From: Streptomyces sp. NRRL F-5126
GTDB taxonomy: Bacteria; Actinomycetota; Actinomycetes; Streptomycetales; Streptomycetaceae
Direction of reading: 5' to 3'
Length of the DNA stretch: 64,000 bases
Assembly: GCF_000721265.1 (NCBI RefSeq)
Contig: NZ_JOFZ01000015.1
Coordinates: 186,001 to 250,000, forward strand
The notes beneath the pieces were generated by a model that was given only the letters and a program-made list of their open reading frames with translations, did not search any database and was not told where the DNA came from. The translations under genes were made by a program, and so were the position numbers. Position 1 is the first letter of the stretch, and each line of letters starts with the position of its first letter. Below are positions 21,095-36,942 of the stretch, piece after piece.

Positions 21095-22285
21095 GTGAGG
21101 CGAATGACGGCTCGACCGGCCAATGTCCATCAGGCCAGGCTGCTGCGCCTGCTGCGCGACCTCGGTCCGCAGTCCCGAGTCGCCCTGGGCAACCAGGTCG
21201 AACTGTCGCGCTCCAAGCTCGCGGTCGAGATCGACCGGCTGCTTGAGACGGGCCTCGCCGTCCAGGACGGCCTCGCCGCCTCCCGCGGCGGCCGCCGCTC
21301 GCACAACGTCAGGATCGCCCCGTCGCTGCGCTTCCTCGGCGTGGACATCGGCGCCACCTCGGTGGACGCCGCCGTCACCAACGCGGAGCTCGAGGTGCTC
21401 GGCCACCTGTCCGAACCCCTCGACGTGCGCGAGGGCCCGGTCGTCGTTTTCGAGCGGGTGCTCGCCCTGGCCGCCAAGTTGCGCGAGGCCGGCCTCGCCG
21501 AGCACTTCGACGGCGCCGGCATCGGGCTGCCCGGGCCCGTCAGGTTTCCCGAGGGCGTCCCGGTCGCACCGCCGATCATGCCGGGGTGGGACGGGTTCCC
21601 CGTCCGCGAGGCGCTGAGCCAGGAGCTCGGCTGCCCCGTCCTCGTCGACAACGACGTGAACCTGATGGCGCTCGGCGAGCAGCAGGCCGGTGTCGCACGG
21701 TCCGCGCGCGACTTCCTGTGCGTCAAGGTCGGCACCGGCATCGGCTGCGGCATCGTCGTCGGCGGCGCGGTCCACCGCGGTGTCACCGGCAGCGCGGGCG
21801 ACATCGGGCACATCCAGGTGGACCCGAACGGCCCGCAGTGTGCCTGCGGCAACGTCGGCTGCCTCGAAGCACACTTCGGCGGCCACGCCCTCGTGCGCGA
21901 CGCGACCGCGCTCGCCGAGTCGGGCCGTTCCGCGGAGCTGGCGGCGCGGCTCGAAGCGGCCGGGCGGCTGATCCCGCAGGACGTGGCGGCGGCCGCCGGC
22001 GCAGGTGACACGGCGGCCCTGGAGATGATCCGGGCCGGCGGCACCCGCACCGGACAGGTCATCGCGGGCCTCGTCAGCTTCTTCAACCCCGGACTCGTGG
22101 TCATCGGGGGCGGCCTCACGGGGCTCGGCCACACTCTGCTCGCCGCCATCCGCACCCAGGTCTACCGGCAGTCCCTGCCGCTGGCGACCGGCAACCTGCC
22201 GATCGTCCTCGGCGAACTCGGCCAGATCGCCGGCGTCGTCGGCGCCACCCGTCTCATCAGCGACCACGTCTTCTCGCCGGCCTGA
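21095..22285 (+). CDS. ROK-family transcriptional regulator
   Basis: This protein of about 396 residues has an N-terminal MarR-like winged helix (VHQARLLRLLRDLGPQSRVA) and a ROK sugar-kinase-like domain. The nucleotide-binding motif is FLGVDIGATSVDAAV. The zinc-binding motif CACGNVGCLEAH and the sugar-contact region GDIGHIQVDP are present. ROK repressors release DNA when a sugar or sugar phosphate binds. The next genes encode a Gfo/Idh/MocA enzyme and a sugar importer, so the effector is probably the imported sugar or cyclitol. GTG 21095 sits 4 nt after GGGAGGG; ATG 21104 is an alternative. The upstream 224 bp contain CTTTTGAAAG, a candidate autoregulatory site. Confidence 0.9.
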   Translation: MRRMTARPANVHQARLLRLLRDLGPQSRVALGNQVELSRSKLAVEIDRLLETGLAVQDGLAASRGGRRSHNVRIAPSLRFLGVDIGATSVDAAVTNAELEVLGHLSEPLDVREGPVVVFERVLALAAKLREAGLAEHFDGAGIGLPGPVRFPEGVPVAPPIMPGWDGFPVREALSQELGCPVLVDNDVNLMALGEQQAGVARSARDFLCVKVGTGIGCGIVVGGAVHRGVTGSAGDIGHIQVDPNGPQCACGNVGCLEAHFGGHALVRDATALAESGRSAELAARLEAAGRLIPQDVAAAAGAGDTAALEMIRAGGTRTGQVIAGLVSFFNPGLVVIGGGLTGLGHTLLAAIRTQVYRQSLPLATGNLPIVLGELGQIAGVVGATRLISDHVFSPA

Positions 22286-22321
22286 CGCCCCCGAGCGCGG
22301 CCGGATCCCGTTCCCCCGCGA

Positions 22322-22343
22322 ACGGACGCGTTCCCGCGTCCGT
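22322..22343. terminator. Short hairpin between ROK and oxidoreductase genes
   Basis: ACGGACGCG-TTCC-CGCGTCCGT is a perfect 9-bp stem with a 4-nt loop, 37 nt after the ROK stop. It may reduce read-through or act as an operator. Confidence 0.45.
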
Positions 22344-22372
22344 CACCCGCGCCCACAAGACCAGGAGCGCCT

Positions 22373-23629
22373 ATGGACAGTCAGCACCGCCCGCCCGAGA
22401 TCGGGGTGGGCATGGTCGGATACGCATTCATGGGCCAGGCGCACTCTCATGCCTGGCGCACCGTCGCCTCCGCCTTCGACCTGCCCATGCGCCCGGTCAT
22501 GGCCGCCCTCGGAGGGCGCGAGCAGGCGGCACTTCAGCAAGCGGCCGCGCGTCTGGGCTGGGCCGCGACCGAGACCGACTGGCGCGCCCTGATCGCACGC
22601 CCCGACGTTGCGCTCGTGGACATCTGCACCCCGGGTTCGAGCCACGCCGAGATCGCCATCGCGGCGCTGGAGGCGGGCAAGCACGTGTTGTGCGAGAAGC
22701 CGCTCGCCAACACCGTCGAGGAGGCGGAGGCCATGGCGGCCGCCGCGGCCTCGGCCGCACGCCGCGGTGTGCGCTCGATGGTGGGGTTCAGCTACCGGCG
22801 CGCACCGGCGCTCGCGTTCGCCCGCCGGCTGATCGCCGACGGCCGCCTCGGCACCCTGCGGCACGTACGCACCCAGTACCTCCAGGACTGGATCGTCGAT
22901 CCCGAATTCCCGCTGGTGTGGCGGCTGAAACGCGAGCACGCCGGCTCCGGCGCGCTCGGCGACCTCGGCGCCCACATCGTCGACCTGGCCCAGTTCCTCG
23001 TCGGCGAGCCGCTTTCGGGTGTCGCAGCCCTGACGGAGACGTTCGTACGCGAACGCCCGCTGCCCGCTGCCTCGGCGGGACTCGCGGCCACCCCCGACGG
23101 GACGGCCGCGCGCGGGCCCGTGACGGTGGACGACGCGGCGCTGTTCCTCGGCAGGTTCCCCGGCGGCGCGGTCGCCTCGTTCGAGGCCACCAGGGTCGCC
23201 TCCGGCCGGAAGAACGCGCTGCGCATCGAGATCAACGGAGACCGGGGCAGCCTCGCCTTCGACATGGAACGCATGAACGAGCTGGAGTTCCACGACCACA
23301 CGGAGCCGGCCGCGACGGCGGGCTTCCGCCGGATCCTCGCCACCGAACCCGACCACCCCTACCTCGAAGGGTGGTGGCCGCCGGGCCACGGACTCGGCTA
23401 CGACCACACCTTCGTGCACCAGATGCGCGACCTGATCCACGCCATCGGCGAGGACCGCGACCCGGAGCCGTCCTTCGCGGACGGCCTGCGGGTGCAGCGG
23501 GTGCTGGCCGCGGTGGAGGACAGCGCCGCGAACGGCAGCGCCTGGACGCCCGTCGATCACACGGGCACAGCGCCGGACGGCCCGCCGCCACCGCCCAGGA
23601 CCGACACCCCTGTCACGGTCGCTCCCTGA
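22373..23629 (+). CDS. Gfo/Idh/MocA-family NAD(P)-dependent oxidoreductase
   Basis: This is a 418-residue enzyme. The N-terminal Rossmann fold begins VGMVGYAFMGQAHSHAW, a family variant of the GxGxxG loop. The conserved Glu108-Lys109-Pro110 lies in VLCEKPLAN. The C-terminal alpha/beta domain carries GALGDLGAHIVDLAQFLVG, with the His/Asp of the active site. Members oxidise or reduce inositol, glucose, 3-keto-glycosides and their derivatives. ATG 22373 has AGGAG at good spacing. The gene stands between the ROK regulator and the sugar importer. The closest named use is oxidation of inositol or a glycoside at C3; the exact substrate cannot be read from the sequence. Confidence 0.9.
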   Translation: MDSQHRPPEIGVGMVGYAFMGQAHSHAWRTVASAFDLPMRPVMAALGGREQAALQQAAARLGWAATETDWRALIARPDVALVDICTPGSSHAEIAIAALEAGKHVLCEKPLANTVEEAEAMAAAAASAARRGVRSMVGFSYRRAPALAFARRLIADGRLGTLRHVRTQYLQDWIVDPEFPLVWRLKREHAGSGALGDLGAHIVDLAQFLVGEPLSGVAALTETFVRERPLPAASAGLAATPDGTAARGPVTVDDAALFLGRFPGGAVASFEATRVASGRKNALRIEINGDRGSLAFDMERMNELEFHDHTEPAATAGFRRILATEPDHPYLEGWWPPGHGLGYDHTFVHQMRDLIHAIGEDRDPEPSFADGLRVQRVLAAVEDSAANGSAWTPVDHTGTAPDGPPPPPRTDTPVTVAP

Positions 23630-24063: not shown

Positions 24064-25578
24064 ATGAGTGCCCCGCTGCTCGAGATGCAAGGCGTCGTCA
24101 AGGAGTTCCCCGGCGTCCGGGCCCTCGACGGCGTCGACCTCGACGTGGTCGCCGGAGAGGTGCACTGCCTGCTGGGCCAGAACGGCGCCGGCAAATCGAC
24201 CCTCATCAAAGTCCTCGCGGGCGCCCACAGGACCGACGAGGGACGCATCGCCTGGGAGGGCGAGCCGGTGGCCCTGACGAGCCCGACCGCCGCCATGAGG
24301 CACGGCATCGCCACCATCTACCAGGAACTCGACCTGGCCGACGGCCTGTCCGTGGCGGAGAACATCTACCTGGGCCACGAGCAGGCCCGCATGGGCTTCA
24401 CCCAGCGCTCGCGGATGCACGAGGCGACCCGGCGGCTCCTGCGCCGGCTCGGCCATCCGGAGATCCCCGCCACCCGCGAGGTCGGCGAACTGTCCGCCGC
24501 CGGCAAGCAACTCGTGTCCATGGCGCGCGCGCTCTCCCACCAGGCCCGGCTCATCATCATGGACGAGCCGTCCGCGGTGCTCGCCCACGACGAGGTGGAC
24601 AACCTCTTCCGGATCATCGCCGACCTCACCGCCGCGGGCGTCGCCGTGGTCTACATCTCCCACCGCATGGAGGAGATCCGCCGCATCGGCGACCGCGTCA
24701 CCGTCCTCAAGGACGGCCGCACCGTCGCCAGGGGGCTGCCCGCGCGCACCACCCCCACGTCCGAGCTCGTCGCGCTGATGACCGGACGCACCGTCGAGTC
24801 CGTCTTCCCGCCGCGGCGCGGCGGCGGCGAAGGGTCCGAGGAGCGCCAGGTGCTCCTGGACGTCGAACACCTCAGCCTCCCGGGGAAGTTCGAGGACGTC
24901 TCCCTCACGGTCGGGGCCGGCGAGATCGTCGGGCTCGCGGGCCTGGTCGGCTCGGGGCGCTCGGAGATCCTCGAAACGGTCTACGGCGCACGGCGCCCGG
25001 CCTCGGGGCGCGTCAGCGTGGCCGGCACCGCGCTGCGGCCCGGCTCCATCGCCGCCGCTGTCCGGGCAGGCGTCGGCCTCGCGCCGGAGGAGCGCAAGAG
25101 CCAGGCGCTGTTCCTGCACTCCTCCATCGCCCACAACGTGTCCATGTCCTCGCTGCGGCGGTTCGCCCACGCCGGGTTCATGGACGCGCGCACCGAACTG
25201 GAGGCCACGGCGGATGCCGTACGCAAGCTCGACCTGCGGCCGCCCGACCCGACCCGGCCGGTGCGCACGCTCTCCGGCGGCAACCAGCAGAAGGCCGTCG
25301 TCGCCAGGTGGCTGCTCACGGACTGCCGGCTCCTGCTGCTCGACGAGCCCACGCGCGGCGTGGACGTCGGGGCGCGGGCCGAGTTGTACGCGCTGATCAG
25401 GCGCCTCGCGGATGCCGGGGTCGGCGTGCTCCTCGTCTCCAGCGAGGTGCCCGAGGTCCTGGGTCTCTCGGACCGCGTACTCGTCCTGCGCGAGGGGCGG
25501 GTGGTCACTGAGGCCGCGGCGCGTGACCTCGACGAATCGATCGTGCTCGACCTCGTGATGGAAGGGAGCTCCGCATGA
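24064..25578 (+). CDS. Sugar ABC importer ATPase, two fused ATP-binding domains (RbsA/MglA type)
   Basis: This 504-residue protein has two ABC domains. The first has Walker A GQNGAGKST and a signature region degenerate to ELSAAGKQLVSMARAL with IIMDEPSAVL. The second has a non-canonical P-loop position (GLVGSGRSE), which is normal for RbsA, and a canonical signature TLSGGNQQKAVVARWL with LLLDEPTRGVD. This pattern is diagnostic for CUT2-class importers of ribose, xylose, galactose or inositol. The ATG lies 3-9 nt after an AGGGAGA element. It overlaps the permease start by four bases. Confidence 0.95.
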   Translation: MSAPLLEMQGVVKEFPGVRALDGVDLDVVAGEVHCLLGQNGAGKSTLIKVLAGAHRTDEGRIAWEGEPVALTSPTAAMRHGIATIYQELDLADGLSVAENIYLGHEQARMGFTQRSRMHEATRRLLRRLGHPEIPATREVGELSAAGKQLVSMARALSHQARLIIMDEPSAVLAHDEVDNLFRIIADLTAAGVAVVYISHRMEEIRRIGDRVTVLKDGRTVARGLPARTTPTSELVALMTGRTVESVFPPRRGGGEGSEERQVLLDVEHLSLPGKFEDVSLTVGAGEIVGLAGLVGSGRSEILETVYGARRPASGRVSVAGTALRPGSIAAAVRAGVGLAPEERKSQALFLHSSIAHNVSMSSLRRFAHAGFMDARTELEATADAVRKLDLRPPDPTRPVRTLSGGNQQKAVVARWLLTDCRLLLLDEPTRGVDVGARAELYALIRRLADAGVGVLLVSSEVPEVLGLSDRVLVLREGRVVTEAAARDLDESIVLDLVMEGSSA

Positions 25579-26636
25579 GCCGGCAGACCAGTCCCCCCGG
25601 CGGGAGCGGTCCGCTGCCCGCGGCCGCCCAGAAAGCCGCGCCCGGATCCGCCGGGAAAACCGGCTCGTCACCGGGCGGACCGGGCGGGCCCGCGTTCCTC
25701 GGCCACATGGGCAGGGTGCGCAACCTCGGCCTGTTCGCGGTGCTCGTCCTGCTCTGCGTCGTCGGCGCGCTGACCTCGGACAACTTCGCGACCAGCCAGA
25801 ACGCCCTGGTCATCCTCAGCAGCGCGGCCGTCATCGGCGTCATCACGATCGGCCAGTCCTTCGTCATCATCGGCGGCGGCATCGACCTGTCCGTCGGCGC
25901 GATCGTGGCGCTCGCGTCCGTGTGGTGCACCACGGTGGCCACGCAGTCCTACGGGCTCGGCGGGATGATCCTCTGCGCGCTGGTGGTGGGCGCCGTCGTG
26001 GGCCTCGTCAACGGCGTGATCATCGCCTACGGCCGCATCGTCGCGTTCATCACGACGATCGCCATGATGGCGAGCGCACGCGGGCTGGCGGAACGTATCT
26101 CCGACCGGCAGTCGCAGGTCGTCACGGTCCAGTCGTTCAACTCGATCGCGTCGACCAGGTTCCTCGGCATCCCGCTGCTGGTCTACATCCTGGCGGTCGC
26201 CGTGGCCGCCGGGTGGGTGCTGCTCAACCGCACCACCTTCGGCCGCAGGACGTTCGCCATCGGCGGCAACCAGGAGGCGGCGCGCCTCGCAGGACTCGGC
26301 GTGCGGCGCCACACCCTGCTGCTGTACGTCCTGTCAGGGCTGTGCTGCGGCATCGCCGCGGTCATGCTGACCGCCCGTACCACCTCGGGCGCCAGCAACC
26401 TCGGCAACCTGTACGAACTGGACTCGATCGCCGCGGTGATCATCGGCGGCACGCTGCTGACCGGCGGCCGCGGCTCGCTCGTCGGCTCGATCCTGGGCGT
26501 TCTGGTGTTCACCACGATCACCAACATCTTCGTCCTGAACAACCTGACGACCGACATCCAGCAGATCGCCAAGGGCCTGATCATCGTCGCCGCCGTGCTG
26601 ATCCAGCGACGCGGCCGCAAAGGCGCCACCCCATAG
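25575..26636 (+). CDS. Sugar ABC importer permease (RbsC type)
   Basis: This 353-residue membrane protein has about nine hydrophobic segments after a Gly/Pro-rich N-terminal tail of about 45 residues. The conserved CUT2 permease motif (GGGIDLSVGAIVALASV) and the cytoplasmic coupling region (FAIGGNQEAARLAGLGVRRH) are present. It forms the membrane channel with the RbsA-type ATPase, whose gene it overlaps (ATGA). The substrate-binding protein follows after 26 bp. Confidence 0.95.
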   Translation: MSRQTSPPGGSGPLPAAAQKAAPGSAGKTGSSPGGPGGPAFLGHMGRVRNLGLFAVLVLLCVVGALTSDNFATSQNALVILSSAAVIGVITIGQSFVIIGGGIDLSVGAIVALASVWCTTVATQSYGLGGMILCALVVGAVVGLVNGVIIAYGRIVAFITTIAMMASARGLAERISDRQSQVVTVQSFNSIASTRFLGIPLLVYILAVAVAAGWVLLNRTTFGRRTFAIGGNQEAARLAGLGVRRHTLLLYVLSGLCCGIAAVMLTARTTSGASNLGNLYELDSIAAVIIGGTLLTGGRGSLVGSILGVLVFTTITNIFVLNNLTTDIQQIAKGLIIVAAVLIQRRGRKGATP

Positions 26637-26662
26637 ACCCCGTGACTGGAAGGACGAGCGAG

Positions 26663-27730
26663 ATGGACAAGCGCGGACGCGGCGGCCTCGACCGCAGAAG
26701 CCTCCTGTTCAGCGGTGCGGCACTCGGCGGCGGAGCCCTGGTCGCCGGCTGCACGAGCAACAAGAGCCCCGACGACTCCTCGGGCAACCTGAACGCGGCG
26801 GCCAAGGCCGGCACCGACAACGACAAGCCGGGCAAGCAGGTCACCATCGGCTTCTCGGCCCCCGCGGCCGACCACGGCTGGATGGCCGCCATCTCCAAGA
26901 ACGCCTCGGCACAGGCCAAGCAGTACTCCGACGTGCACCTGGAGGTCGTCGAGGGCACCAACGACGTCAACGCCCAGATCAGCCAGGTCCAGACGCTGAT
27001 CGGCAAGAAGGTCGACATCCTGGTAATCCTGCCCTTCGACGGCAAGGCGCTGACGGCCGTGGCCCAGCAGGCGATGGACGCGGGCATCCCCGTCGTCAAC
27101 GTCGACCGAGTCTTCGACACGCCGCTCGCGTACCGGACGTGGATCGGCGGCGACAACTTCGGCATGGGCCTCAACGCCGGCCTCTACATCGGCAAGACCC
27201 TCAAGGCGAAGGGCGTCTCCAAGCCCGTGATCGGCGAGATCGCCGGCATCGACAACCTGGAACTCACCAAGCAGCGCAGCGCAGGACTCAAGAAGGGCCT
27301 GGCCAAGTACGGCTTCACCGTCGGCATCCGGCAGGCCGCCGACTTCACCGCGGACTCGGGACAGCAGGTGATGAGCAACGTGCTGCAGGCACGCTCCCAC
27401 CTCGACGCGGTGTGGAACCACGACGACGACCAGGGCATCGGCGTGGAGGCGGCCATCAAGCAGGCCGGACGCAGCGAGTTCTTCATGGTCGGCGGCGCAG
27501 GCTCCAAGCACGTGATGCAGGAGATCAAGGCGGACAACTCCGTGGTCAAGGCCACGGTCGTCTACCCCTCGAACATGTCCGCGTCGGCCATCAGGCTCGC
27601 CAGGCTCATGGCCCAGCACAAGGCCATCGGCGACCTCGTCGGGCAGGACCTGCCGTCCTCGGTGACCCTGTACTCGGCGACCGTCACCAAGGACAACGTC
27701 GACCAGTACCTGCCCGGCGCCTTCAGCTGA
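26663..27730 (+). CDS. Sugar ABC importer substrate-binding lipoprotein (RbsB type)
   Basis: This 355-residue lipoprotein has a Tat-like leader (LDRRSLLFSGAALGGGAL) ending in the lipobox LVAGC, with Cys30 as the lipidated residue. A periplasmic-binding-protein-1-like fold follows (TIGFSAPAADHGWMAAISKN, VDILVILPFDGKAL, GIPVVNVDR, AVWNHDDDQGIGVEAAIKQAG). The ligand contacts that would tell inositol from ribose are not clear by eye. Export by Tat implies folding before export, which is common for such lipoproteins in Streptomyces. The operon continues into the ThuA gene. Confidence 0.94.
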   Translation: MDKRGRGGLDRRSLLFSGAALGGGALVAGCTSNKSPDDSSGNLNAAAKAGTDNDKPGKQVTIGFSAPAADHGWMAAISKNASAQAKQYSDVHLEVVEGTNDVNAQISQVQTLIGKKVDILVILPFDGKALTAVAQQAMDAGIPVVNVDRVFDTPLAYRTWIGGDNFGMGLNAGLYIGKTLKAKGVSKPVIGEIAGIDNLELTKQRSAGLKKGLAKYGFTVGIRQAADFTADSGQQVMSNVLQARSHLDAVWNHDDDQGIGVEAAIKQAGRSEFFMVGGAGSKHVMQEIKADNSVVKATVVYPSNMSASAIRLARLMAQHKAIGDLVGQDLPSSVTLYSATVTKDNVDQYLPGAFS

Positions 27731-27774
27731 TCCGGCGCACACCGTTTCGGAAACCAGGTCACGAAAGGTTGATG

Positions 27775-28575
27775 ATGTCCCGTAGAAACATCTTCGCGCT
27801 GCTCTCGGCGGCCGCTCTGGCCCTGCCGCTGGCGGCCACAAGCGCCGCCACCGCGCAGGCGGGCACACCGGCGTACAACGTGCTGGTGTTCTCGAAGACC
27901 ACCGGATTCCGCCACGACTCCATCCCCGACGGCGTCGCGGCCATCCAGAAGCTCGGCCGGGAACACCACTTCAACGTCGACACGACCGAGGACGCCACGG
28001 TGTTCAACGACACCGGCCTGGCGAAGTACCAGTCGGTCGTGTTCCTGTCCACCACGGGCGACCCACTGGACCAGCAGGCCGAGAAGGACGCCTTCCAGCG
28101 CTACATCGAGCAGGGCGGCGGCTACGTCGGCATCCACGCCGCCGCCGACTCCGGCTACACCTGGTCCTGGTACGGCGGCCTGGTCGGCGCGTACTTCAAC
28201 GACCACCCGTCGCCCCAGCCGGCGACGGTCGACGTCGTGGGCAGGGGCACCGCGGCCACCAGGGGCCTGCCGAACCGCTGGAAGCGCACCGACGAGTGGT
28301 ACAACTACCGCTCCAACCCGCGCGAGAACGTGCGGGTACTGGCCACCCTTGACGAGCGGACGTACGACCCGGTCGGCTACAACGGCGGCTCGATGGGCGC
28401 GGACCACCCGATCGCCTGGTGCCATCCGTACGACGGTGGCCGCGCCTTCTACACGGGCATGGGCCACACCAAGGAGAGCTACACCGACCCGCTGTTCCTC
28501 TCGCACATCCTCGGCGGCATCGAGATGACGGCCGGTGCGGCGAAGTTCAACTGCGATCCGGAGCACACCGGCTGA
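27775..28575 (+). CDS. Secreted ThuA-domain protein
   Basis: This protein of about 266 residues has a signal peptide (IFALLSAAALALPLAATSAA, cleavage near AQA). A ThuA domain fills the rest: YNVLVFSKTTGFRHDSI, GGGYVGIHAAADSGYTWSWYG, HPIAWCHPYDGGRAFYTGMGH. ThuA-like proteins belong to the glutamine-amidotransferase-like fold, and some act on 3-keto-trehalose or other 3-keto-sugars. It resembles the two split ThuA halves of the giant protein at 13403-17452. ATG 27775 has GAAAGG 6 nt upstream; ATG 27772 is an alternative. It is the last gene of the importer block before a 123-bp gap with short repeats. Confidence 0.88.
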   Translation: MSRRNIFALLSAAALALPLAATSAATAQAGTPAYNVLVFSKTTGFRHDSIPDGVAAIQKLGREHHFNVDTTEDATVFNDTGLAKYQSVVFLSTTGDPLDQQAEKDAFQRYIEQGGGYVGIHAAADSGYTWSWYGGLVGAYFNDHPSPQPATVDVVGRGTAATRGLPNRWKRTDEWYNYRSNPRENVRVLATLDERTYDPVGYNGGSMGADHPIAWCHPYDGGRAFYTGMGHTKESYTDPLFLSHILGGIEMTAGAAKFNCDPEHTG

Positions 28576-28581
28576 TCCGAA

Positions 28582-28626
28582 AACACACGGATCACACGGG
28601 TCACACGGATCACTCGGATCACACGG
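28582..28626. repeat. Five 9-bp tandem repeats
   Basis: Units of the type ATCACACGG lie at 28582, 28591, 28600, 28609 and 28618 with one or two changes each. They sit between the ThuA and cyclase genes and are not coding. They could form iterated protein sites or be a slippage product. Confidence 0.75.
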
Positions 28627-28698: not shown

Positions 28699-29874
28699 AT
28701 GCCAGGTCAGCGCAGTCGTACGGGTGTCTGGTTGGTGGGGGCGCGCGGATCGGTGGCCACCACGGTCGTCGCCGGCACCGCGGCCCTGCGTGCGGGTCTT
28801 GCCGGGACGGCGGGGTGTGTCACCGAGCAGCCGGACTTTCCGGACGCCGGGCTGCCCGCACTGTCCGACCTGGTCTTCGGGGGCCACGACGTGGCCTGCA
28901 CGCCGCTTCCGAAGCGGGCCGAGCAGCTCGTCGAGGCGGGCGTGCTGCCGCACGGGCTGCCTGCGGGCATCCAGGACGACCTGGCCGCCGCCGACGCGGA
29001 GATACGCCAGGCTCCGCTCCCCGACGGCGCCACGAGCCAGGGGGACGCCGTCGCGGCGATACGCGATGACATCGTTGCCTTCCGCGAGCGGCACGGCCTC
29101 GCGCGGGTCGTCGTCGTCAACGTGTCGTCGACGGAACCGGTGCTCGCTTCGCACCCCGCGCACGACTCGGCCGCGGCCCTGCGCGCGGCCCTCGCCGCCG
29201 GTGAGGACGTGCTGCCGCCCAGTTCCCTCTACGCGCTCGCCGCGATCACGGCCGGGTGCGCGCACGTCGACTTCACGCCGTCGCCCGGCATGCGGATCCC
29301 CGCGCTGCGCGAGCTGGCTGAGGAGGCCGGCGTGCCGTACGCGGGCAACGACGGCAAGACGGGTGAGACCCTGCTCAAGGCCACACTCGGGCCGATGTTC
29401 GCCGCCCGGGGCCTGCGGGTGAGGGCCTGGTCGGGCACCAACCTGCTGGGCGGCGGCGACGGCGAGACGCTCGCCGACCCGGCGGCGAGCGCCAGCAAGG
29501 AGGTCTCCAAGCAGCACGTGCTCGGCCGGACGCTGGGGCACCCCGTGGAGGGCGAGGTCCACATCGACTACGTGCCCGCGCTCGGCGACTGGAAGACCGC
29601 CTGGGACCACGTGGCGTTCGACGGGTTCCTCGGCGTGCGGATGAACCTGCAGTTCACCTGGGTCGGCTGCGACTCGGCGCTGGCCGCGCCCCTGGTGATC
29701 GACCTCGCCCGGCTGACCGCTCGCGCCCACGAGCGCGAGGTGTCGGGCCCGCTGGGCGAGTTGGGCTTCTTCTTCAAGGACCCGATCGGCACGGACGAGC
29801 ACGCGGTGATGGCCCAGTACGAGACGCTGCGTGCCTTCGCCTCCGGGCTCGGGGACGTCGGGGGCGATCGGTGA
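28699..29874 (+). CDS. myo-Inositol-1-phosphate synthase family protein
   Basis: This 391-residue protein has an N-terminal NAD-binding Rossmann loop (TGVWLVGARGSVATTVV). The MIPS core motifs are ARVVVVNVSSTEP, VPYAGNDGKTGETLLK (catalytic-site lysine region), NLLGGGDGETL and FVGVR/NLQFTWVGCDSALAAPLVIDLARL. It is of the bacterial MIPS length class. These enzymes turn glucose-6-phosphate into inositol-3-phosphate by NAD-linked oxidation, cyclisation and reduction. GGAGGTGA precedes the ATG at textbook spacing. It opens a chain of genes in which every stop overlaps or touches the next start (UbiA, epimerase, EboA, EboB, EboE, EboF). In cyanobacterial ebo clusters the cyclase is a dehydroquinate-synthase-like EboD; none is present here. 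Confidence 0.9.
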   Translation: MPGQRSRTGVWLVGARGSVATTVVAGTAALRAGLAGTAGCVTEQPDFPDAGLPALSDLVFGGHDVACTPLPKRAEQLVEAGVLPHGLPAGIQDDLAAADAEIRQAPLPDGATSQGDAVAAIRDDIVAFRERHGLARVVVVNVSSTEPVLASHPAHDSAAALRAALAAGEDVLPPSSLYALAAITAGCAHVDFTPSPGMRIPALRELAEEAGVPYAGNDGKTGETLLKATLGPMFAARGLRVRAWSGTNLLGGGDGETLADPAASASKEVSKQHVLGRTLGHPVEGEVHIDYVPALGDWKTAWDHVAFDGFLGVRMNLQFTWVGCDSALAAPLVIDLARLTARAHEREVSGPLGELGFFFKDPIGTDEHAVMAQYETLRAFASGLGDVGGDR

Positions 29875-30824
29875 CCCGCCGGTCCGCGCCCCGACCCGGC
29901 GCGGGTGCCGCCCGGCGTCTGCGTGACCTCGCCGAGCTGGTGCGCGCACCGGCCGCGCTCACCGTGCCGGGCGACGTACTGGCAGGGGCGGCCGCCGCGG
30001 GCCGCAGCCCCGGCCTGCCGGTGGCCGGCCTCGCCGCCTCGTCGGTCTGCCTTTACTGGGCCGGGATGGCGCTCAACGACTGGGCCGACCGCGATCTGGA
30101 CGCCGTCGAGCGCCCCGAGCGGCCGATCCCCTCCGGCCGTGTGACGGCGCCGGTCGCGCTGTCCACCGCCGTGGGCCTCACCGCCGCGGCCCTGGGGCTC
30201 GCCGCGGCCGCGGAGGGCCGCCGCGCGATGACGGTCGGTGTGCCGCTCGCGGCGACGGTGTGGGCCTACGACCTGTGGGCCAAGCCGCGCGCGGCGGGGC
30301 CCGCGGTGATGGCGGCCGCCCGCGGTCTCGACGTGCTGCTCGGCGCGGGCGTCGGCCGCACACGGCCCGCCCTGCCGGCGGCCGCGACCATCGCGGGACA
30401 CACCCTGGCCGTCACCGCGCTCAGCCGTGCGGAGGTCAGCGGCGCCGACCCGTGGCTGCCGGGGGCGGCGCTCGCCGCCACCGGGGCCGTCACGGCCGCG
30501 GTGGCGCTGCGCGGCGCACGGGCAGCGGGTGCAGCGGGTGCAGCGGGGACGATGCGGGCCGGGCAGCGCGCGGGCCGCGCTGCCCGGCCGGCCGTCGCCT
30601 GCGGGCTCGCCGCGTACGGTGCCACCGCGGGCCTCGCGCAGGCCCGCGCCGTCGCCGATCCCTCCCCGGGCAGGGTGCGCGGGGCCGTCGGCGCGGGCAT
30701 ACTCGGCCTGATCCCGCTGCAGGCCGCGCTCGCCGCGTCCGCGGGCGCGCGGCGCCCCGCGCTCGCGCTGGCCGCCGTCTTCGCGCCCGCCCGCGCCCTG
30801 TCGAGGCGGGTGTCGCCGACATGA
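29871..30824 (+). CDS. eboC: UbiA-type prenyltransferase (EboC / SCO3242-like)
   Basis: This 317-residue integral membrane protein has eight or nine hydrophobic segments. The first Asp-rich motif, NDWADRDLDAVERPERPIPSGR-like at about residues 67-88, matches the NDxxDxxxD prenyl-diphosphate site of UbiA enzymes. The second motif is weak. EboC proteins are proposed to prenylate or otherwise help move a small precursor across the membrane. The start is GTG in a GTGA overlap with the cyclase stop, and its own stop overlaps the next ATG. Confidence 0.9.
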   Translation: MTRRSAPRPGAGAARRLRDLAELVRAPAALTVPGDVLAGAAAAGRSPGLPVAGLAASSVCLYWAGMALNDWADRDLDAVERPERPIPSGRVTAPVALSTAVGLTAAALGLAAAAEGRRAMTVGVPLAATVWAYDLWAKPRAAGPAVMAAARGLDVLLGAGVGRTRPALPAAATIAGHTLAVTALSRAEVSGADPWLPGAALAATGAVTAAVALRGARAAGAAGAAGTMRAGQRAGRAARPAVACGLAAYGATAGLAQARAVADPSPGRVRGAVGAGILGLIPLQAALAASAGARRPALALAAVFAPARALSRRVSPT

Positions 30825-31744
30825 CCGCGCCACGCGACGCCGGCCGCGCGCCGGACGAGCCCCTCCTGCGCTACGGGTTCGGCACCAACGGCTTCGCCAA
30901 CCACCGCCTTGAGGACGCGCTCACCGTCATCGCCGAACTCGGCTACGACGGCGTGGCGCTCACCCTCGACCACCACCACCTCGACCCGTTCGCGCCCGGC
31001 CTCGCCGCCCGTACGGCCGCGCTCGCACGGTGGCTCGACCGGCTCGGTCTCGGCGTCATCATCGAGACCGGGGCCCGCTACCTGCTCGACCCCTGGCACA
31101 AGCACGAGCCGACCCTGCTCGCGTCCGAAGGCCGGGAACTGCGCGTCGAGTTCCTGCGCCGTGCGGTGGCGGTCGGCGCCGACCTCGGCGCGCAGGCCGT
31201 CTCCTTCTGGGCCGGGGTCAGGCCCCCGGAGCTCGACCCGCGCACGGCATGGGACCGGCTGGTCGCCGGGTGCGCCGAGGTCGTCGACACCGCGGCCCGG
31301 GCGGGCGTCACGCTGGGCTTCGAGCCCGAGCCCGGGATGCTCGTGGAGAGCCTCGACGGGTACGGCAGGCTCGCGGCGGCGCTCGGCGACCCCGCCCCGT
31401 TCGGCCTGACCCTCGACATCGGCCACTGCCGCTGCCTGGAGCCGTACCCGGTGCCCGAGTGCGTGCGCCGTGCCGGGGGCCGGCTGGTGAACGTGCAGAT
31501 CGACGACATGCGCCGTGGCACCCACGAGCACCTGGAGTTCGGCACCGGGGAGATCGACTTCCCGCCGGTGCTCGACGCCCTGGACGAGGTCGGCTACCGC
31601 GGCCTCGTCGCCGTCGAACTGCCCAGGCACAGCCACGACGCGCCGGGGACGGCCCGCCGCTCCCTGGACTTCCTGCGGTCGTGCGACCCGGCGGCCCACC
31701 CTGCGGCCCGCCGCACGGCCCGCCGAGAGGAGGAGACGGCATGA
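30821..31744 (+). CDS. Sugar-phosphate isomerase/epimerase-like TIM barrel protein
   Basis: This 307-residue cytoplasmic protein has an AP-endonuclease-2-like TIM barrel: YGFGTNGFANHRLEDAL, LGVIIETGARYLLDP, VTLGFEPEPGMLVESLDGY, FGLTLDIGHCRCLEP and GYRGLVAVELPRHSHDAP. The Glu, Asp, His and Glu residues at the ends of strands form the expected metal site. It overlaps the UbiA stop and the EboA start, so it is a fixed member of the operon. Its product could feed the cyclase or prenyltransferase step. The exact reaction is unknown. Confidence 0.87.
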   Translation: MTAPRDAGRAPDEPLLRYGFGTNGFANHRLEDALTVIAELGYDGVALTLDHHHLDPFAPGLAARTAALARWLDRLGLGVIIETGARYLLDPWHKHEPTLLASEGRELRVEFLRRAVAVGADLGAQAVSFWAGVRPPELDPRTAWDRLVAGCAEVVDTAARAGVTLGFEPEPGMLVESLDGYGRLAAALGDPAPFGLTLDIGHCRCLEPYPVPECVRRAGGRLVNVQIDDMRRGTHEHLEFGTGEIDFPPVLDALDEVGYRGLVAVELPRHSHDAPGTARRSLDFLRSCDPAAHPAARRTARREEETA

Positions 31745-32436
31745 CCCCCGACCGCCTCAGAGCCGCCTTGGCAGGACGGATGACCGCGCAGGGCTCCGCG
31801 TGGCTCGCGGGCGCGTGCGCCGCCGCGGCAGCCGACCCCGAGACCGTCCGCTCCCTGTTCCCGCCAGCCGGACGCCGCTGCGGACGCGGCCCGCTGGACC
31901 CCGCAGACCCGCACGGCTGGAGCGTGGACGACGCGGCCCGCGCCCTGCTGCTCACCGCGCTGCCGTTGACCGGCGGTCGGCTGCTCGACGAGATCGGCGG
32001 GCTGTACCGCACGGGCGACGCCGCGGAACGGCGCGCCGTACTGCGGGCGTTGCCGCTGCTGCCCGTCGGTGACGGCGCGCTGCCCCTGGTACGCGACGCG
32101 CTGCGCACCAACGACACCCGCCTGATCGCCGCCGCGCTCGGCGACTACGCGACGGCCCACCTGGACGCGGAGGCCTACCGGCAGGCCGTGCTCAAGTGTG
32201 TCTTCACCGGCATCCCGCTGGCCGCGGTGCCCGGCCTGCCCGCACGGGAAGACGCCCGGCTGGCCCGCATGATGGGCGCGTTCGCCCTTGAGCGGGCCGC
32301 CGCCGGGCGCGAGACACCCGCCGACATCCGGCCGATCCTGGCACGCTTCCCCGAGGCCACGGCCCCCGGCGGCCAGGACCGCCCCGCTGACGTTCCCACG
32401 TCGGCCACCGAACCCCGCAGCTCCCGGGAGGCGTGA
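31741..32436 (+). CDS. eboA: EboA-domain protein
   Basis: This 231-residue helical protein has no signal peptide. The diagnostic EboA stretch lies near residues 95-165: RRAVLRALPLLPVGDGALPL, then RTNDTRLIAAALGDYATAHLD, then RQAVLKCVFTGIPL. EboA is a marker of the conserved ebo gene cluster linked to precursor export in scytonemin synthesis. Its biochemical role is not known; the HEAT-like helices suggest a scaffold. The start overlaps the epimerase stop (ATGA), and its TGA shares a base with the ATG of the TatD gene. Confidence 0.85.
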   Translation: MTPDRLRAALAGRMTAQGSAWLAGACAAAAADPETVRSLFPPAGRRCGRGPLDPADPHGWSVDDAARALLLTALPLTGGRLLDEIGGLYRTGDAAERRAVLRALPLLPVGDGALPLVRDALRTNDTRLIAAALGDYATAHLDAEAYRQAVLKCVFTGIPLAAVPGLPAREDARLARMMGAFALERAAAGRETPADIRPILARFPEATAPGGQDRPADVPTSATEPRSSREA

Positions 32437-33308
32437 TGCGCATCTTCGACCCGCACATCCACATGTCCTCGCGCACCACCGACGACTACGAGGCGATGCA
32501 CGCCGCCGGCGTGCGCGCCCTGGTGGAACCCGCGTTCTGGCTCGGCCAGCCGCGCACCTCCGTGGGCAGCTTCCTCGACCACTTCGACTCCCTGATCGGC
32601 TGGGAGCCCTTCCGTGCCGCACAGTTCGGCATCCGGCACCACTGCACCATCGCGCTCAACCCCAAGGAGGCCAACGACCCGCGCTGCGCCGAGGTGCTGG
32701 GTGAGTTGCCGCGCTACCTGCCCAAGGACGGGGTGGTCGCCGTCGGCGAGGTCGGCTACGACTCGATGACGCCCGAGGAGGACGAGGCGTTCGCCGCACA
32801 GCTCCAGCTCGCCGTCGCCCACGACCTGCCCGCGCTGGTCCACACCCCGCACCGCGACAAGGCCGCGGGCGTCGAGCGCACACTCGCCGTGGTGAAGGAG
32901 TCGGGGCTCGCCCCCGAACGCGTCGTCGTCGACCACCTCAACGAGGTGACCGTGCGCCAAGTCGCCGATACAGGCTGCTGGATGGGCTTCTCCATCTACC
33001 CGGACACCAAGATGGACGAGCGCCGCATGGTCGCCGTCCTGCGCGAGTTCGGCACCGAGCGGATCCTCGTCAACTCGGCGGCGGACTGGGGGCGCAGCGA
33101 CCCGCTCAAGACGCGCAGGACCGGGGACGCCATGCTCGCCGCCGGCTTCACCGACGACGAGGTGGACGCTGTCCTGTGGCGCAATCCGGTCACCTTCTAC
33201 GGCCAGAGCGGCAAGCTGGAGCTCGACGAACCCCCACTCGGGGCTGCCAGTGGCGGCGCCACCTTCGAGGGCAACTCCGTGCTGCGCGGCGTCCGAGCGG
33301 AGGTGTGA
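32436..33308 (+). CDS. eboB: TatD-family metal-dependent hydrolase (EboB)
   Basis: This 290-residue metal-dependent hydrolase begins MRIFDPHIHMSSRT with the HxH metal motif. Conserved His residues follow in LVHTPHRDKA and VVDHLNEVT, and a C-terminal Asp in NSAADWG completes the TatD-type site. Relatives hydrolyse phosphoester or lactone bonds. ATG 32436 is 4 nt after GGGAGG and overlaps the EboA stop (TGATG). Its placement between EboA and EboE matches the cyanobacterial ebo order. Confidence 0.87.
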   Translation: MRIFDPHIHMSSRTTDDYEAMHAAGVRALVEPAFWLGQPRTSVGSFLDHFDSLIGWEPFRAAQFGIRHHCTIALNPKEANDPRCAEVLGELPRYLPKDGVVAVGEVGYDSMTPEEDEAFAAQLQLAVAHDLPALVHTPHRDKAAGVERTLAVVKESGLAPERVVVDHLNEVTVRQVADTGCWMGFSIYPDTKMDERRMVAVLREFGTERILVNSAADWGRSDPLKTRRTGDAMLAAGFTDDEVDAVLWRNPVTFYGQSGKLELDEPPLGAASGGATFEGNSVLRGVRAEV

Positions 33309-33310
33309 CC

Positions 33311-34477
33311 GTGCGTCTGCTGCATCCCGACGGCACACTCGTCCACCTGGCGTACTGCACCAACGTGCACCCCGCCGAGGACCTAGACGGCGTCCTCGCC
33401 CAACTGGCCTTCCACGCCGAGCCCGTACGCGAACGGCTCGACGTACCGGTACTCGGCCTGGGGCTGTGGCTCGCGCGCGACGCAGCGGCGGCACTCGCGG
33501 CCGACGGCAGCGCGGTCGGCAGGCTCCGCCGGGAGCTCGACGCGCGCGGCCTGGAGGTCGTCACACTGAACGGCTTCCCCTACCGCGGCTTCCACGACCC
33601 CGTCGTCAAGCACGCCGTCTACCGGCCCGACTGGACCACACGGGACCGGCTGCACTACACACTCGACCTCGCCCGTGTGCTCTCCGCCCTGCTCCCCGAC
33701 GACGCGGCCCACGGCAGCGTCTCCACCGTGCCGCTGGGCTGGCGGACCCCGTGGACGGCCGGGCAGGCGGACGAGGCGGCCAGGGCCCTGGACAAGCTGG
33801 CCGCCGGGCTCGCGGCCCTCGAAACCGAGACCGGCCGTACGGTCGGGGTCGGCCTGGAGCCCGAGCCCGGATGCGTCGTCGAGACCACGGCCCAGGCCGC
33901 CCGCCACCTGGCCGGCGTGGACACCGACCGCATCGGCGTCTGCCTGGACGCCTGCCACCTCGCCGTCGCCTTCGAGGAACCCGCCGCCGCCCTCGCCCGC
34001 CTGGACGCGGCGGCGCTGCGGGTGGTCAAGGCGCAGGCGTCCTGCGCCTTGCAGGCCGGCGATCCCTCCGACCCGGCGGCTCGTGACGCGCTGGCCGCCT
34101 TCGCCGAACCCCGCTTCCTGCACCAGGTGCGCGAGCGCGGCCCCGCGCCCCTGGCCGTGGACGACCTCGACGCCGCCCTGGCCGGCGAGTTGCCCGGCCA
34201 GGACGCCTGGCGCGTCCACTTCCACGTGCCGCTGCACGCCGACCCGGAACCCCCGCTGACCACGACACGGCCCGAACTTGAGGCGACCCTCGCCGCCCTC
34301 CTCGGCGGGGACACCGCCCGCACCGCGCATGTGGAGGCCGAGACGTACACCTGGGGCGTGCTCCCCGAGGACCGCCGGCCGCACGGGCCCGGCGCGCTCG
34401 CCGACGGCATTGCCGCCGAACTCGCCTTCACCCGTGACCACTTGCTCTCCCTCGGCCTGAAGGAGGCCGCCGCATGA
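33311..34477 (+). CDS. eboE: EboE-like TIM-barrel metabolite-traffic protein
   Basis: This 388-residue protein opens with the family-typical VHLAYCTNVHPAEDLDGV. It continues with a barrel containing EVVTLNGFPYRGFHDPVVKH, VGLEPEPGCVVETT, IGVCLDACHLAVAFEEPA and HFHVPLHADPEPPLTTT. This matches EboE proteins. The EPEPG and DACH motifs are shared with the metal-dependent epimerases. GTG 33311 is 7 nt after GGAGG; GTG 33305, overlapping the EboB stop, is also in frame. The stop overlaps the next gene's ATG. Confidence 0.86.
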   Translation: MRLLHPDGTLVHLAYCTNVHPAEDLDGVLAQLAFHAEPVRERLDVPVLGLGLWLARDAAAALAADGSAVGRLRRELDARGLEVVTLNGFPYRGFHDPVVKHAVYRPDWTTRDRLHYTLDLARVLSALLPDDAAHGSVSTVPLGWRTPWTAGQADEAARALDKLAAGLAALETETGRTVGVGLEPEPGCVVETTAQAARHLAGVDTDRIGVCLDACHLAVAFEEPAAALARLDAAALRVVKAQASCALQAGDPSDPAARDALAAFAEPRFLHQVRERGPAPLAVDDLDAALAGELPGQDAWRVHFHVPLHADPEPPLTTTRPELEATLAALLGGDTARTAHVEAETYTWGVLPEDRRPHGPGALADGIAAELAFTRDHLLSLGLKEAAA

Positions 34478-35880
34478 GCCCCGCGCCACTGCTCGTACTC
34501 GACGTCGTCGGCCTCACCCCCCGGCTGCTCGCCCACATGCCGCGGCTGCGCGCCCTGGGCGAGACGGGCTTCACCGCCCGCCTGGACACCGCGTTCCCCG
34601 CCGTCACCTGCACCGTGCAGTCCACCCTGCTCACCGGGCAGCCCGCGACCGGCCACGGCATCGTCGGCAACGGCTGGTACTTCCGCGAGCTGGGCGAAGT
34701 GATGCTGTGGCGGCAGCACAACGCCCTCGTCGGCGGCGAGAAGGTGTGGGAGGCGGCGCGGCGCTCGCACCCCGGCTACCGCGTCGCCAACATCTGCTGG
34801 TGGTACGCCATGGGGGCAGACGTCGACCTGACCGTCACACCGCGACCCGTCTACTACTCCGACGGCCGCAAGGAGCCTGACTGCTACACGTATCCCCCGC
34901 AGCTGCACGACGAACTCACCGCGAAACTCGGCACGTTCCCCCTGTTCACCTACTGGGGCCCGACGGCCTCCCTCACGTCCTCGCGCTGGATCGCCGACGC
35001 GGCCCGGCACGTCCTGACCACCGAGGCACCCGACCTGGTCCTCGCCTACATCCCCCACCTCGACTACGACCTCCAGCGCTACGGCCCCGACGACCCGCGC
35101 GCGGCAGCCGCGGCGGCCGACGTCGACCGCGTACTCGCCCCGCTGCTCGACGCCGCCGCCGCACGCTCCGTCACCGTCGTCGCCCTCTCCGAGTACGGCA
35201 TCACCAACGTGTCGAGGGCCGTGGACATCAACCGCGTGCTGCGCAGGGCCGGGCTCCTGCACGTCCACACCCAGGACGGCATGGAGTACCTCGACCCGTG
35301 GACGTCGTCCGCCTTCGCCGTCGCCGACCACCAGGTCGCCCACGTCTACGTCGCCGACCCCGCCGACACGGAGCGCGTGCGCGAACTCCTGGCCGGTACA
35401 CAGGGCGTGGCGGACGTGCTCACCGAGGCCGGCAAGAAGGCCCACGGCATCGACCACCCGCGCGCCGGCGACCTCGTCGCCGTCGCCGAACCCGACGCGT
35501 GGTTCACGTACTACTACTGGCTCGACGACGACCGCGCGCCCGACTTCGCCCGCCTCGTCGAGATCCACCGCAAGCCGGGATACGACCCGGCGGAGCTGTT
35601 CATGGACCCGAAGGACCCCAAGGTCAAGCTGCGCGCCGCCGCGGCGCTCGCCCGCAAGAAGCTGGGCATGCGCTACCGCATGAGCGTCGTCCCGCTGGAC
35701 CCGTCCCCGGTGCGCGGCAGCCACGGCCGGCTGCCCGGCCGCCCCGAGGACGGCCCCGTACTGCTGTGCTCCCGTCCCGCCGAGGCCCGCGACCACTACG
35801 ACGCCACCGAGGTCAAGGACCTGCTGCTGCGCCTGGCGGAGATGGGGCACGGGCCGGTGCGACGGCACCGTACAGCGTGA
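34474..35880 (+). CDS. eboF: Nucleotide pyrophosphatase/phosphodiesterase-type alkaline phosphatase fold protein (EboF-like)
   Basis: This 468-residue protein of the alkaline phosphatase superfamily has metal-binding Asp in [14 protein letters not shown], a nucleophile Thr in [41 protein letters not shown] and an [17 protein letters not shown] region. These match the NPP/type I phosphodiesterase family. No signal peptide is seen, so it appears to act inside the cell. In ebo clusters this position is held by EboF, and a phosphate or diphosphate bond is the likely target. It is the last gene in the tight overlap chain. Confidence 0.87.
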
Positions 35881-35911
35881 CAGAACCGATGAACCACCGG
35901 GAGGAACCCAG

Positions 35912-36919
35912 ATGCCACGCCCCATCACCCTGTTCACCGGCCAGTGGGCCGACATGCCGTTCGAGGAGGTGTGCCGGCTCGCGTCGAAGTGGGGGTACGA
36001 CGGGCTGGAGATCGCCTGCTGGGGCGACCACTTCGAGGTCGGCAAGGCTCTTGCCGACGAGGACTACATCCCGCGCCGCCGCGCCCTGCTGGAGAAGTAC
36101 AACCTGCGGTGCTGGGCGCTCTCCTGCCACCTGACGGGCCAGGCCGTGTGCGACCACCCCATCGACGAGCGCCACAAGGGCATCCTCCCCGCCCGTATCT
36201 GGGGCGACGGCGAGCCGGAGGGCGTAAGGCAGCGCGCCGCGCAGGAGATCAAGGACACCGCCCGGGCCGCGGCCGCCTTCGGTGTGAAGACGGTCATCGG
36301 CTTCACGGGCTCGTCGATCTGGCACACGGTGGCGATGTTCCCGCCCGTACCGCCGGAGATGATCGAACGCGGCTATGCGGACTTCGCCGACCGCTGGAAC
36401 CCCATCCTGGACGTCTTCGACGAGGTCGGCGTGCGCTTCGCGCACGAGGTGCACCCCTCGGAGATCGCCTACGACTACTGGACGACGGTGCGCACCCTGG
36501 AGGCGATCGGCCACCGGGAGGCGTTCGGCCTCAACTTCGACCCGTCACACTTCGTCTGGCAGGACCTGGACCCGGCCGGCTTCCTGTGGGACTTCAGGGA
36601 CCGCATCTACCACGTGGACTGCAAGGAGTCGGTCAAACGCTTCAACGGCCGCAACGGGCGGCTCGGCTCCCACCTGCCGTGGGCGGACCCGCGCCGAGGC
36701 TGGGACTTCGTGTCCACCGGGCACGGGGACGTCCCGTGGGAGGCGTGCTTCCGTGTGCTCAACTCCATCGGCTACGAAGGACCGATCTCGGTGGAGTGGG
36801 AGGACGCGGGCATGGACCGCCTGGTCGGCGCGCCCGACGCGCTGAGGTTCATCCGCAGGCTCACCGCGATCGAGCCGTCGGAACGGTCCTTCGACTCGGC
36901 GTTCTCCTCCGGCAACTGA
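35912..36919 (+). CDS. Sugar-phosphate isomerase/epimerase-like TIM barrel protein
   Basis: This 335-residue protein is a third family member in the window. Metal-site motifs are [76 protein letters not shown] and [14 protein letters not shown]. The close match to inositol-2-dehydrogenase-associated and 3-keto-sugar epimerases is in the [10 protein letters not shown] and FDPSHF stretches. GGGAGGA precedes the ATG, 31 bp after EboF, so it probably ends the operon. It may process the same substrate as the upstream Gfo/Idh/MocA enzyme. Confidence 0.9.
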
Positions 36920-36942
36920 GGTACACCGCGCGGCGATCGGGG

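Follow-up and report, generated by a model that had tools for sequence, protein, structure and literature searches.

A ROK-linked, putative 3-keto-glycoside gene set adjoining an ebo cluster with a MIPS-type cyclase in Streptomyces

A stretch of 64,000 nucleotides from the 7.18-Mb genome of Streptomyces sp. NRRL F-5126 (contig NZ_JOFZ01000015.1, positions 186,001 to 250,000; hereafter the window) holds a ROK-family regulator, a sugar importer and enzymes of keto-sugar type next to a cluster of ebo genes, in which a cyclase of the myo-inositol-1-phosphate synthase (MIPS) type stands where EboD would be expected. On balance, the locus appears to couple a 3-keto-glycoside module under ROK control to a variant ebo cluster, which would make a prenylated cyclitol derived from glucose-6-phosphate. 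The linkage of the two blocks, a shared palindrome and the swap of cyclases are computed results; the product, the enzyme activities and the physiological coupling are what we infer. The locus comprises 14 genes, all on the + strand within 21095-36919, whose family matches agree with the names given in a preliminary description of this DNA:

21104..22285 (alternative start 21095), + strand: ROK-family regulator (PF00480, 193 bits); a ROK 79-82% identical to it lies upstream of RbsA in 20/20 hand-picked loci of relatives
22373..23629, + strand: Gfo/Idh/MocA dehydrogenase (Gfo), levoglucosan-dehydrogenase-like (NF052479, 374 bits, cut-off 650; PDB 4h3v, 579 bits, and 6a3f, 322 bits)
24064..25578 (alternative start 24016), + strand: RbsA-type ABC ATPase (PF00005 twice; AraG/XylG/RbsA-like, under the equivalog cut-offs)
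25575..26636, + strand: RbsC-type permease (PF02653)
26663..27730, + strand: RbsB-type sugar-binding protein with a lipoprotein-like N-terminus (PF13407; best PDB match 4joq, 106 bits, then 2ioy, 100 bits)
27772..28575, + strand: single-domain secreted ThuA protein (PF06283, 260 bits; signal-peptide-like N-terminus)
28699..29874, + strand: MIPS-type cyclase, in a cluster without EboD (PF07994, 181 bits; PF01658, 112 bits; PDB 1u1i, 230 bits)
29871..30824, + strand: UbiA-family prenyltransferase of the SCO3242 family, counterpart of EboC (NF045897, 358 bits, cut-off 260)
30821..31744, + strand: TIM1, an actinobacterial ebo gene with a predicted ketose-3-epimerase fold (PF01261; AlphaFold2 (AF2) model and Foldseek)
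31741..32436, + strand: EboA (NF035938, 164.7 bits, above the cut-off of 50)
32433..33308, + strand: EboB, TatD-like hydrolase (PF01026; 413 bits with a hidden Markov model (HMM) from non-actinobacterial EboB, which assigns it)
33305..34477 (alternative start 33311), + strand: EboE (NF035939, 432 bits, above the cut-off of 250)
34474..35880, + strand: EboF, phosphodiesterase/pyrophosphatase (PF01663, 228 bits; 637 bits with an HMM from non-actinobacterial EboF, which assigns it)
35912..36919, + strand: TIM2, like SCO6571 and 3-keto-glucal hydratase (PDB 2zds, entry title SCO6571, 617 bits; 8ro4, 154 bits)

All the genes named in the preliminary description are thus present and point in one direction. 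Neighbours do overlap, as was said there; overlaps of 4 bp occur at seven junctions (RbsA/RbsC and every step of the series MIPS, UbiA, TIM1, EboA, EboB, EboE, EboF); the joined genes number nine and not eight, and the count varies with the choice of start codon, for instance EboE at 33305 or 33311. Gaps are left between Gfo and RbsA (434 bp, or 386 bp with the start at 24016), between ThuA and MIPS (123 bp) and between EboF and TIM2 (31 bp). The nearest named EboE is that of Streptomyces montanisoli, at 94% identity.

The two blocks stay together throughout most of the genus, which was sampled as 101 genomes; counts are uncorrected for relatedness, co-occurrence counts take in partial EboE matches of genomes G008 and G081, and gene calls in fetched loci come from a simple codon-score script, which missed some genes. 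EboE occurs in 73/101 genomes, with 71 exceeding the family cut-off; the 71 loci compared exclude the EboE-positive genomes G002, G008, G017, G028, G041, G050, G073, G081 and G099, where the match is partial or near a contig end. The commonest order at these 71 places is RbsA-RbsC-RbsB-Gfo-TIM2, followed by GSDH-PKD-CBM6-ThuA-3-keto hydrolase on one or two secreted proteins, and then by MIPS-UbiA-TIM1-EboA-EboB-EboE-EboF and a TIM barrel; usually, MIPS-ebo follows the GSDH/ThuA gene in the same direction at a median of 115 bp (48 loci). In congener loci of at least 18 kb, importer (RbsC, RbsB), Gfo and TIM2 adjoin ebo in 52 of 67 cases, these four being present in 52/58 loci with MIPS versus 0/9 without it. 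EboE and TIM2 (E<=1e-60) occur together in 68 genomes, EboE only in 5, TIM2 only in 3 and neither in 25 (Fisher p 1e-15, relatedness uncorrected). The preliminary description had proposed one linked locus, to be given up if the importer and ebo blocks lay apart in most relatives; in the genus they adjoin in most loci, this gene set turns up around ebo more often than chance would allow, and the linkage is right and stronger than was claimed, the locus being conserved as one and probably co-regulated. That keto-sugar block and ebo are linked and likely co-regulated is, in our estimation, very probable indeed.

Beyond the genus the picture is more mixed. Wider actinobacterial draws gave 49 loci, nine from a phylum draw (one of them, L121, belonging to the window's genus) and 40 class loci hand-picked, at one to three per genus, from 70 matching genomes outside that genus; 40 of the 49 are ebo clusters and nine are lone EboE-like genes. 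At least 23 of the 40 clusters have a keto-sugar gene within the ~20 kb retrieved, with order and strand varying, a lower bound because the GSDH, ThuA and 3-keto-hydrolase profiles were skipped for L113-L121. Near non-actinobacterial ebo genes (88 loci, E<=1e-4) such enzymes are uncommon (GSDH 2, ThuA 5, 3-keto hydrolase 8, Gfo 10, TIM2 0). The keto-sugar coupling is strong within the genus and partial across the wider phylum; a general rule by which ebo neighbours keto-sugar enzymes in other phyla was rejected on the low counts in these 88 loci. Other neighbourhoods were also seen. Four loci (L033, L034, L055, L111) carry MIPS-type ebo genes without importer beside a condensation-domain gene (of nonribosomal peptide synthetase, NRPS, type; annotated in L111 and assigned from gene order in the other three) and an ornithine-carbamoyltransferase-like gene, neighbours which we take to resemble the edge of the CDA cluster. 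A second type of ebo locus has a P450 gene and no adjacent MIPS or importer (L032, L038, L039, L042, L047, L051, L064, L092, L097); L039, L042, L064, L092 and L097 also carry FAD oxidoreductase, inositol-monophosphatase-like and gamma-glutamyltranspeptidase genes. Lone EboE-like TIM-barrel genes stand beside RbsA/RbsC-type importer genes in L212, L221, L224 and L226, with the other ebo genes absent, and the genes of L227-L231 match roughly the leading two thirds of the EboE model alone, no ebo genes being detected around them.

A search of the intergenic DNA for words brought up CTTTGTCC ahead of both ROK and GSDH; the extended motif is a 23-bp palindrome, CTTTGTCC-N7-RG-N2-RAAG. Scanned with a matrix trained on 54 sites (20 at ROK, 34 at GSDH), the palindrome is found at 20/20 ROK starts and at 35/49 starts of the secreted GSDH/ThuA gene, against 0.0 in shuffled copies of these groups, figures that are to some extent circular, since those sites served to train the matrix; the other groups and the window are untouched by this. 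The other upstream gaps lack it throughout (0/156: RbsA 0/20, Gfo 0/37, RbsB 0/28, MIPS 0/47, downstream TIM barrel 0/24), the bare 8-base core being present in one MIPS gap. The window, which lies outside the training set, has two places that stand out from a next-best score of 12.5 bits:

18741..18763, - strand: ROK-operator-like palindrome beside moved secreted enzymes (24.7 bits, top place in the 64-kb window; 2 mismatches to the pattern)
20955..20977, + strand: ROK-operator-like palindrome upstream of ROK (22.7 bits; 1 mismatch to the pattern)

A ROK gene and a palindrome common to ROK and a target gene mark the locus, at the level of sequence, as a putatively ROK-regulated one, and the palindrome is probably the operator of ROK. 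Since MIPS-ebo in the usual arrangement follows the GSDH/ThuA gene so closely and in the same direction, read-through into it from the palindrome-bearing promoter is likely. A scan for sigma-70 promoter and terminator consensus sequences gave nothing exceeding chance, the sole Rfam match at the curated threshold is a tRNA at 1125, and a permissive Rfam scan of 20800-37000 returned three archaeal snoRNA matches, all below threshold and attributed to chance.

The site at 18741 lies next to a group of upstream genes; profiles built from relatives and run on the window's proteins widen the gene set to ~8963:

8963..11389, - strand: secreted GSDH-PKD-CBM6 protein with a GSDH-type propeller (GSDH HMM from relatives, 610 bits; PF07995, PKD, PF03422)
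11815..12810, + strand: TIM-barrel protein with a Tat-like signal, whose counterpart in relatives (c8sec) lies downstream of ebo (c8sec HMM, 351 bits, and N-terminal sequence; PF01261)
13403..17392, - strand: secreted ThuA-F5/8C-GSDH-PKD-3-keto-disaccharide hydrolase of 1329 residues (PF06283, PF00754, PF07995, PF00801, PF06439)
17538..18527, - strand: protein with multicopper-oxidase domains, downstream of the operator-like site at 18741 and of uncertain membership in the system (PF07731, PF07732)

The counterparts of the three proteins at 8963-17392 are parts of the common congener operon, located elsewhere in this genome; the window thus has the same parts in a rearranged order. The preliminary description left out both these enzymes and the presence of MIPS in EboD's place. 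The palindrome at 18741 is flanked by the multicopper-oxidase-domain gene (17538-18527) and by an OmpL47/Ig-like, copper-binding-like gene (19020-20870).

It is unlikely that the two modules have merely been inherited and moved together in Actinomycetota with no joint function of keto-sugar catabolism and ebo. While TIM2 is found without EboE in three of the 101 genomes, ebo can stand beside an NRPS-type gene or beside P450, FAD oxidoreductase and inositol-monophosphatase-like genes, and the gene set has separate gaps with no palindrome before MIPS, all of which favours such a shared neighbourhood, the parts stay together despite widely differing order and strand, the window included; moreover, the palindrome also lies beside the moved enzyme set, and the importer follows the MIPS-type loci and is missing from all nine that are MIPS-less.

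Within the ebo block, the actinobacterial clusters examined lack EboD and usually have MIPS in its place. In 80 non-actinobacterial genome loci (the best 80 of at least 588 candidates, skewed to Bacteroidota and Cyanobacteria), EboD is present in 74 and MIPS in none, the EboD-less loci being L126, L134, L136, L186, L192 and L198, of which L192 and L198 are short contigs; TIM1 is found in 0/80 at E<=1e-12, with one weak 41-bit match (L175) at E<=1e-4. The 72 genus loci, window included, have MIPS in 60, TIM1 in 71 and EboD in none, and the 40 ebo clusters of the phylum and class draws have MIPS in 38, TIM1 in 36 and EboD in none; the two without MIPS are L120 and L218, the latter lacking any gene between Gfo and UbiA. 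Annotation of plasmid loci (10 of 48 matching records, eight of them from 16 non-actinobacterial ones) agrees: an EboD gene annotated '3-dehydroquinate synthase' lies in the cluster in 8/8 non-actinobacterial loci, and 'inositol-3-phosphate synthase' is annotated in its place in the two Streptomyces loci. A query with one EboD returned three matches at E<=1e-40 (143-149 bits) from the 101 genus genomes, as compared with 341-442 bits for the EboDs of the 74 non-actinobacterial loci (single-sequence phmmer), so that no EboD-grade protein was found in these 101 genomes. The ebo block is accordingly filed as a variant of the known cluster. Ebo-type MIPS (E<=1e-20) occurs in 71/101 genomes, 70 of them EboE-positive, the exception, G090, having 82-residue fragments only; EboE without it is seen in three genomes (G014, G050, which is 82% complete, and G068), and 27 genomes have neither.

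The active site of the cyclase itself looks intact. Lys 220/267/271/299/360 and Asn248 (mapped onto Archaeoglobus fulgidus Ino1, 1u1i), which we take to be catalytic, are kept in 57-58/58 genus sequences; both Pfam domains and the active-site residues place the protein in the myo-inositol-1-phosphate synthase superfamily, and it falls outside the mycothiol Ino1 model TIGR03450 (49.9 bits, cut-off 638). The window genome has a second, separate PF01658 gene (contig G000:C8), presumably housekeeping; two ebo-less genomes that were checked have one each. No report of a MIPS-EboD swap was found in the free-licence literature of PubMed Central (PMC), and 'inositol' is absent from the main text of the ebo papers checked. 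We consider it probable that MIPS does EboD's job. That it instead supplies inositol for another step, with the EboD reaction performed by AroB or another cyclase, is distinctly improbable: the ebo-adjacent cyclase is dispensable in some loci, and G014, which has no ebo-type MIPS, offers the 149-bit match to EboD, but MIPS and EboD are mutually exclusive in the sampled loci, nearly every genome with ebo-type MIPS has EboE as well, and nothing of EboD grade turned up in the genus.

The affinities of the importer block point to keto-sugars. Gfo is closest to PDB 4h3v, for which no function is stated, and then to 6a3f, which we take to be a levoglucosan dehydrogenase; the NCBI levoglucosan dehydrogenase model is its best family, yet it scores below that model's cut-off. 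Gfo is also related to the scyllo-inositol/L-glucose dehydrogenase 5ya8 (229 bits). The nearest match of TIM2 is SCO6571, and TIM2 is further related by sequence to a 2-hydroxy-3-keto-glucal hydratase; the secreted proteins bear ThuA and 3-keto-disaccharide hydrolase domains, and the ligand of the RbsB-type protein could not be read from its PDB matches. The MIPS family acts on glucose-6-phosphate and the importer block neighbours 3-keto-glycoside enzymes, which makes the importer unlikely as a source of cyclitol precursor; it more probably serves keto-sugar catabolism than the making of a cyclitol, and such catabolism is a quite probable function for the block. The preliminary description was right about importer, keto-sugar enzymes, MIPS-type cyclase, UbiA and ebo genes, and a cyclitol product is plausible, but its idea that an imported sugar or inositol is converted by MIPS, UbiA and the Ebo enzymes into an exported product is very doubtful: in spite of the conserved adjacency of importer and ebo and the kinship of Gfo to 5ya8, the glucose-6-phosphate used by MIPS needs no dedicated importer, the block looks degradative, with hydrolases outside and the 3-keto hydratase-like TIM2 inside, TIM2 can occur without EboE, and the importer is absent from the NRPS- and P450-type ebo loci.

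Among the remaining proteins, TIM1 gave an AF2 model of pLDDT 85 whose best Foldseek match is UlaE (3cqj, E 1.5e-15), a predicted ketose-3-epimerase fold that fits a step on a keto-cyclitol. EboA (the Nostoc sequence, L129:4978-5682) is predicted by AF2 to be all-helical at pLDDT 95.8; Foldseek matches its model to nothing at E<=0.001, VIA gives helical-repeat matches of no more than middling quality, and no fold is claimed. In L118, L208, L217, L225 and L235, TIM1 and EboA share one open frame, in agreement with a fusion mentioned in part of PMC5133447.

For the coupled system favoured here, the following order of events can be proposed. ROK would bind the palindrome that precedes both its own gene and the gene for the secreted enzyme, and would release it with sugar present. 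The secreted GSDH, ThuA and 3-keto-disaccharide hydrolase proteins, judging by their families, would attack a surface glycoside, the product of which RbsABC would import; Gfo may then oxidise or reduce at C3, and TIM2 may hydrate or epimerise the 3-keto intermediate. In EboD's role, the MIPS-type cyclase would convert glucose-6-phosphate into inositol phosphate, TIM1 and EboE would epimerise or dehydrate it, EboF would strip the phosphate and the UbiA enzyme would attach a prenyl chain, giving a lipid-linked cyclitol. That a prenylated cyclitol is the product has about even chances. Because a MIPS-fold enzyme is present where EboD is missing, the simplest reading is that glucose-6-phosphate is the likely substrate and that two routes lead to a similar cyclitol. 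The weakest step, a doubtful one, gives the lipid a part in chemistry at the surface or in the periplasm and has it made once the keto-sugar system switches on.

Several observations weigh against this reading. The palindrome is missing from the MIPS and RbsA gaps and from 14/49 GSDH starts, so that ebo may have its own promoter, and the gaps of ~270 bp (TIM2-GSDH) and 115 bp (ThuA-MIPS) make three transcription units possible. Exact matches to the palindrome pattern exist elsewhere, in 83/101 genomes, partly via a recurring sequence; taken genome-wide, the pattern alone does not separate ebo from non-ebo genomes among the 101, and the window genome is without an exact match because both of its sites carry 1-2 mismatches. 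Keto-sugar coupling is not general, given the 23 of 40 wider actinobacterial clusters and its rarity in other phyla. An adjacent MIPS is wanting in 12/72 genus loci, although for L047, L066 and L079 the contig stops a short way upstream, and the only PF01658 gene in each of G014 and G068 falls outside the ebo type. Finally, the UbiA enzyme fails the NCBI EboC equivalog NF035940 (124 bits, cut-off 250) and passes the SCO3242 family instead, and a flavobacterial EboC homologue is described in part of PMC9235831 as farnesylating quinolines in vitro, which suggests an aromatic rather than a cyclitol acceptor.

Ebo clusters span many phyla and plastids, and the clean split of unrelated cyclase folds between the sampled groups hints at the nature of their product: the swap points to a cyclitol, with glucose-6-phosphate as candidate substrate, against the proposal in part of PMC5133447 of a cyclitol made from sedoheptulose-7-phosphate followed by prenyl transfer. 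A bolder extension, to which we give little credence, is that all ebo clusters make a six-carbon cyclitol derived from glucose-6-phosphate and attached to a prenyl chain; EboD would be an inosose-type synthase and not a sedoheptulose-7-phosphate cyclase, Actinomycetota would use MIPS plus TIM1, and here the lipid would be produced as needed, under ROK control, to act as a carrier at the surface or as a redox partner in secreted sugar oxidation. Through the putative ROK operator, a growth condition that switches such a locus on might be found, and operator and swap together open the ebo product to tests in common laboratory Streptomyces.

By comparison with the eboABCDEF clusters of cyanobacteria, Bacteroidota and eustigmatophyte plastids, as described in parts of PMC5133447 and PMC6282210, the window has homologues of EboA, EboB, EboE and EboF and a UbiA-family gene in a similarly tight operon; it differs in lacking EboD, in its MIPS-fold cyclase, the extra TIM1 and the SCO3242-family UbiA, and in the linked ROK/importer/keto-sugar block. 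PMC6282210 gives ebo a role in bringing a scytonemin precursor into the periplasm. A gene of the ScyD/ScyE family, whose name comes from scytonemin enzymes, immediately precedes a MIPS-type ebo cluster on a Streptomyces plasmid (L112:8221-9423). Anecdotally, three of ten annotated ebo loci have oxidative enzymes of extracellular or membrane type nearby (L112: ScyD/ScyE and a multicopper oxidase; L109: a PQQ dehydrogenase; L106: a LodA/GoxA-type oxidase), and in L103 a c-type cytochrome and a dehydrogenase lie ~9 kb from ebo; these neighbours are drawn on for the bolder extension alone.

Closer at hand are SCO3242 and SCO3243, which border the CDA antibiotic cluster of S. coelicolor and are listed in part of PMC3610822 as 'putative transferase' and 'myo-inositol phosphate synthase'; here, too, a SCO3242-family prenyltransferase gene goes with a MIPS gene, the two being consecutive in number. 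In the annotated plasmid locus L111 the full MIPS-UbiA-TIM1-EboA-EboB-EboE-EboF order lies beside the condensation-domain gene; unlike the window, L111 lacks the importer and keto-sugar block. With known 3-keto-glycoside pathways, represented by excerpts on LacABC plus DUF1080 in Caulobacter lactose use (PMC9007349), on DgpA-type C3 oxidation (PMC11239390) and on the cleavage of C-glycosides by 3-keto-glycoside lyases (PMC13273386), the locus shares, as far as its genes tell, a Gfo/Idh-type dehydrogenase, a TIM-barrel keto-sugar enzyme and a secreted PF06439 domain; it is set apart from them by its putative ROK regulation, its ThuA and GSDH domains, its RbsABC importer and its coupling to ebo.

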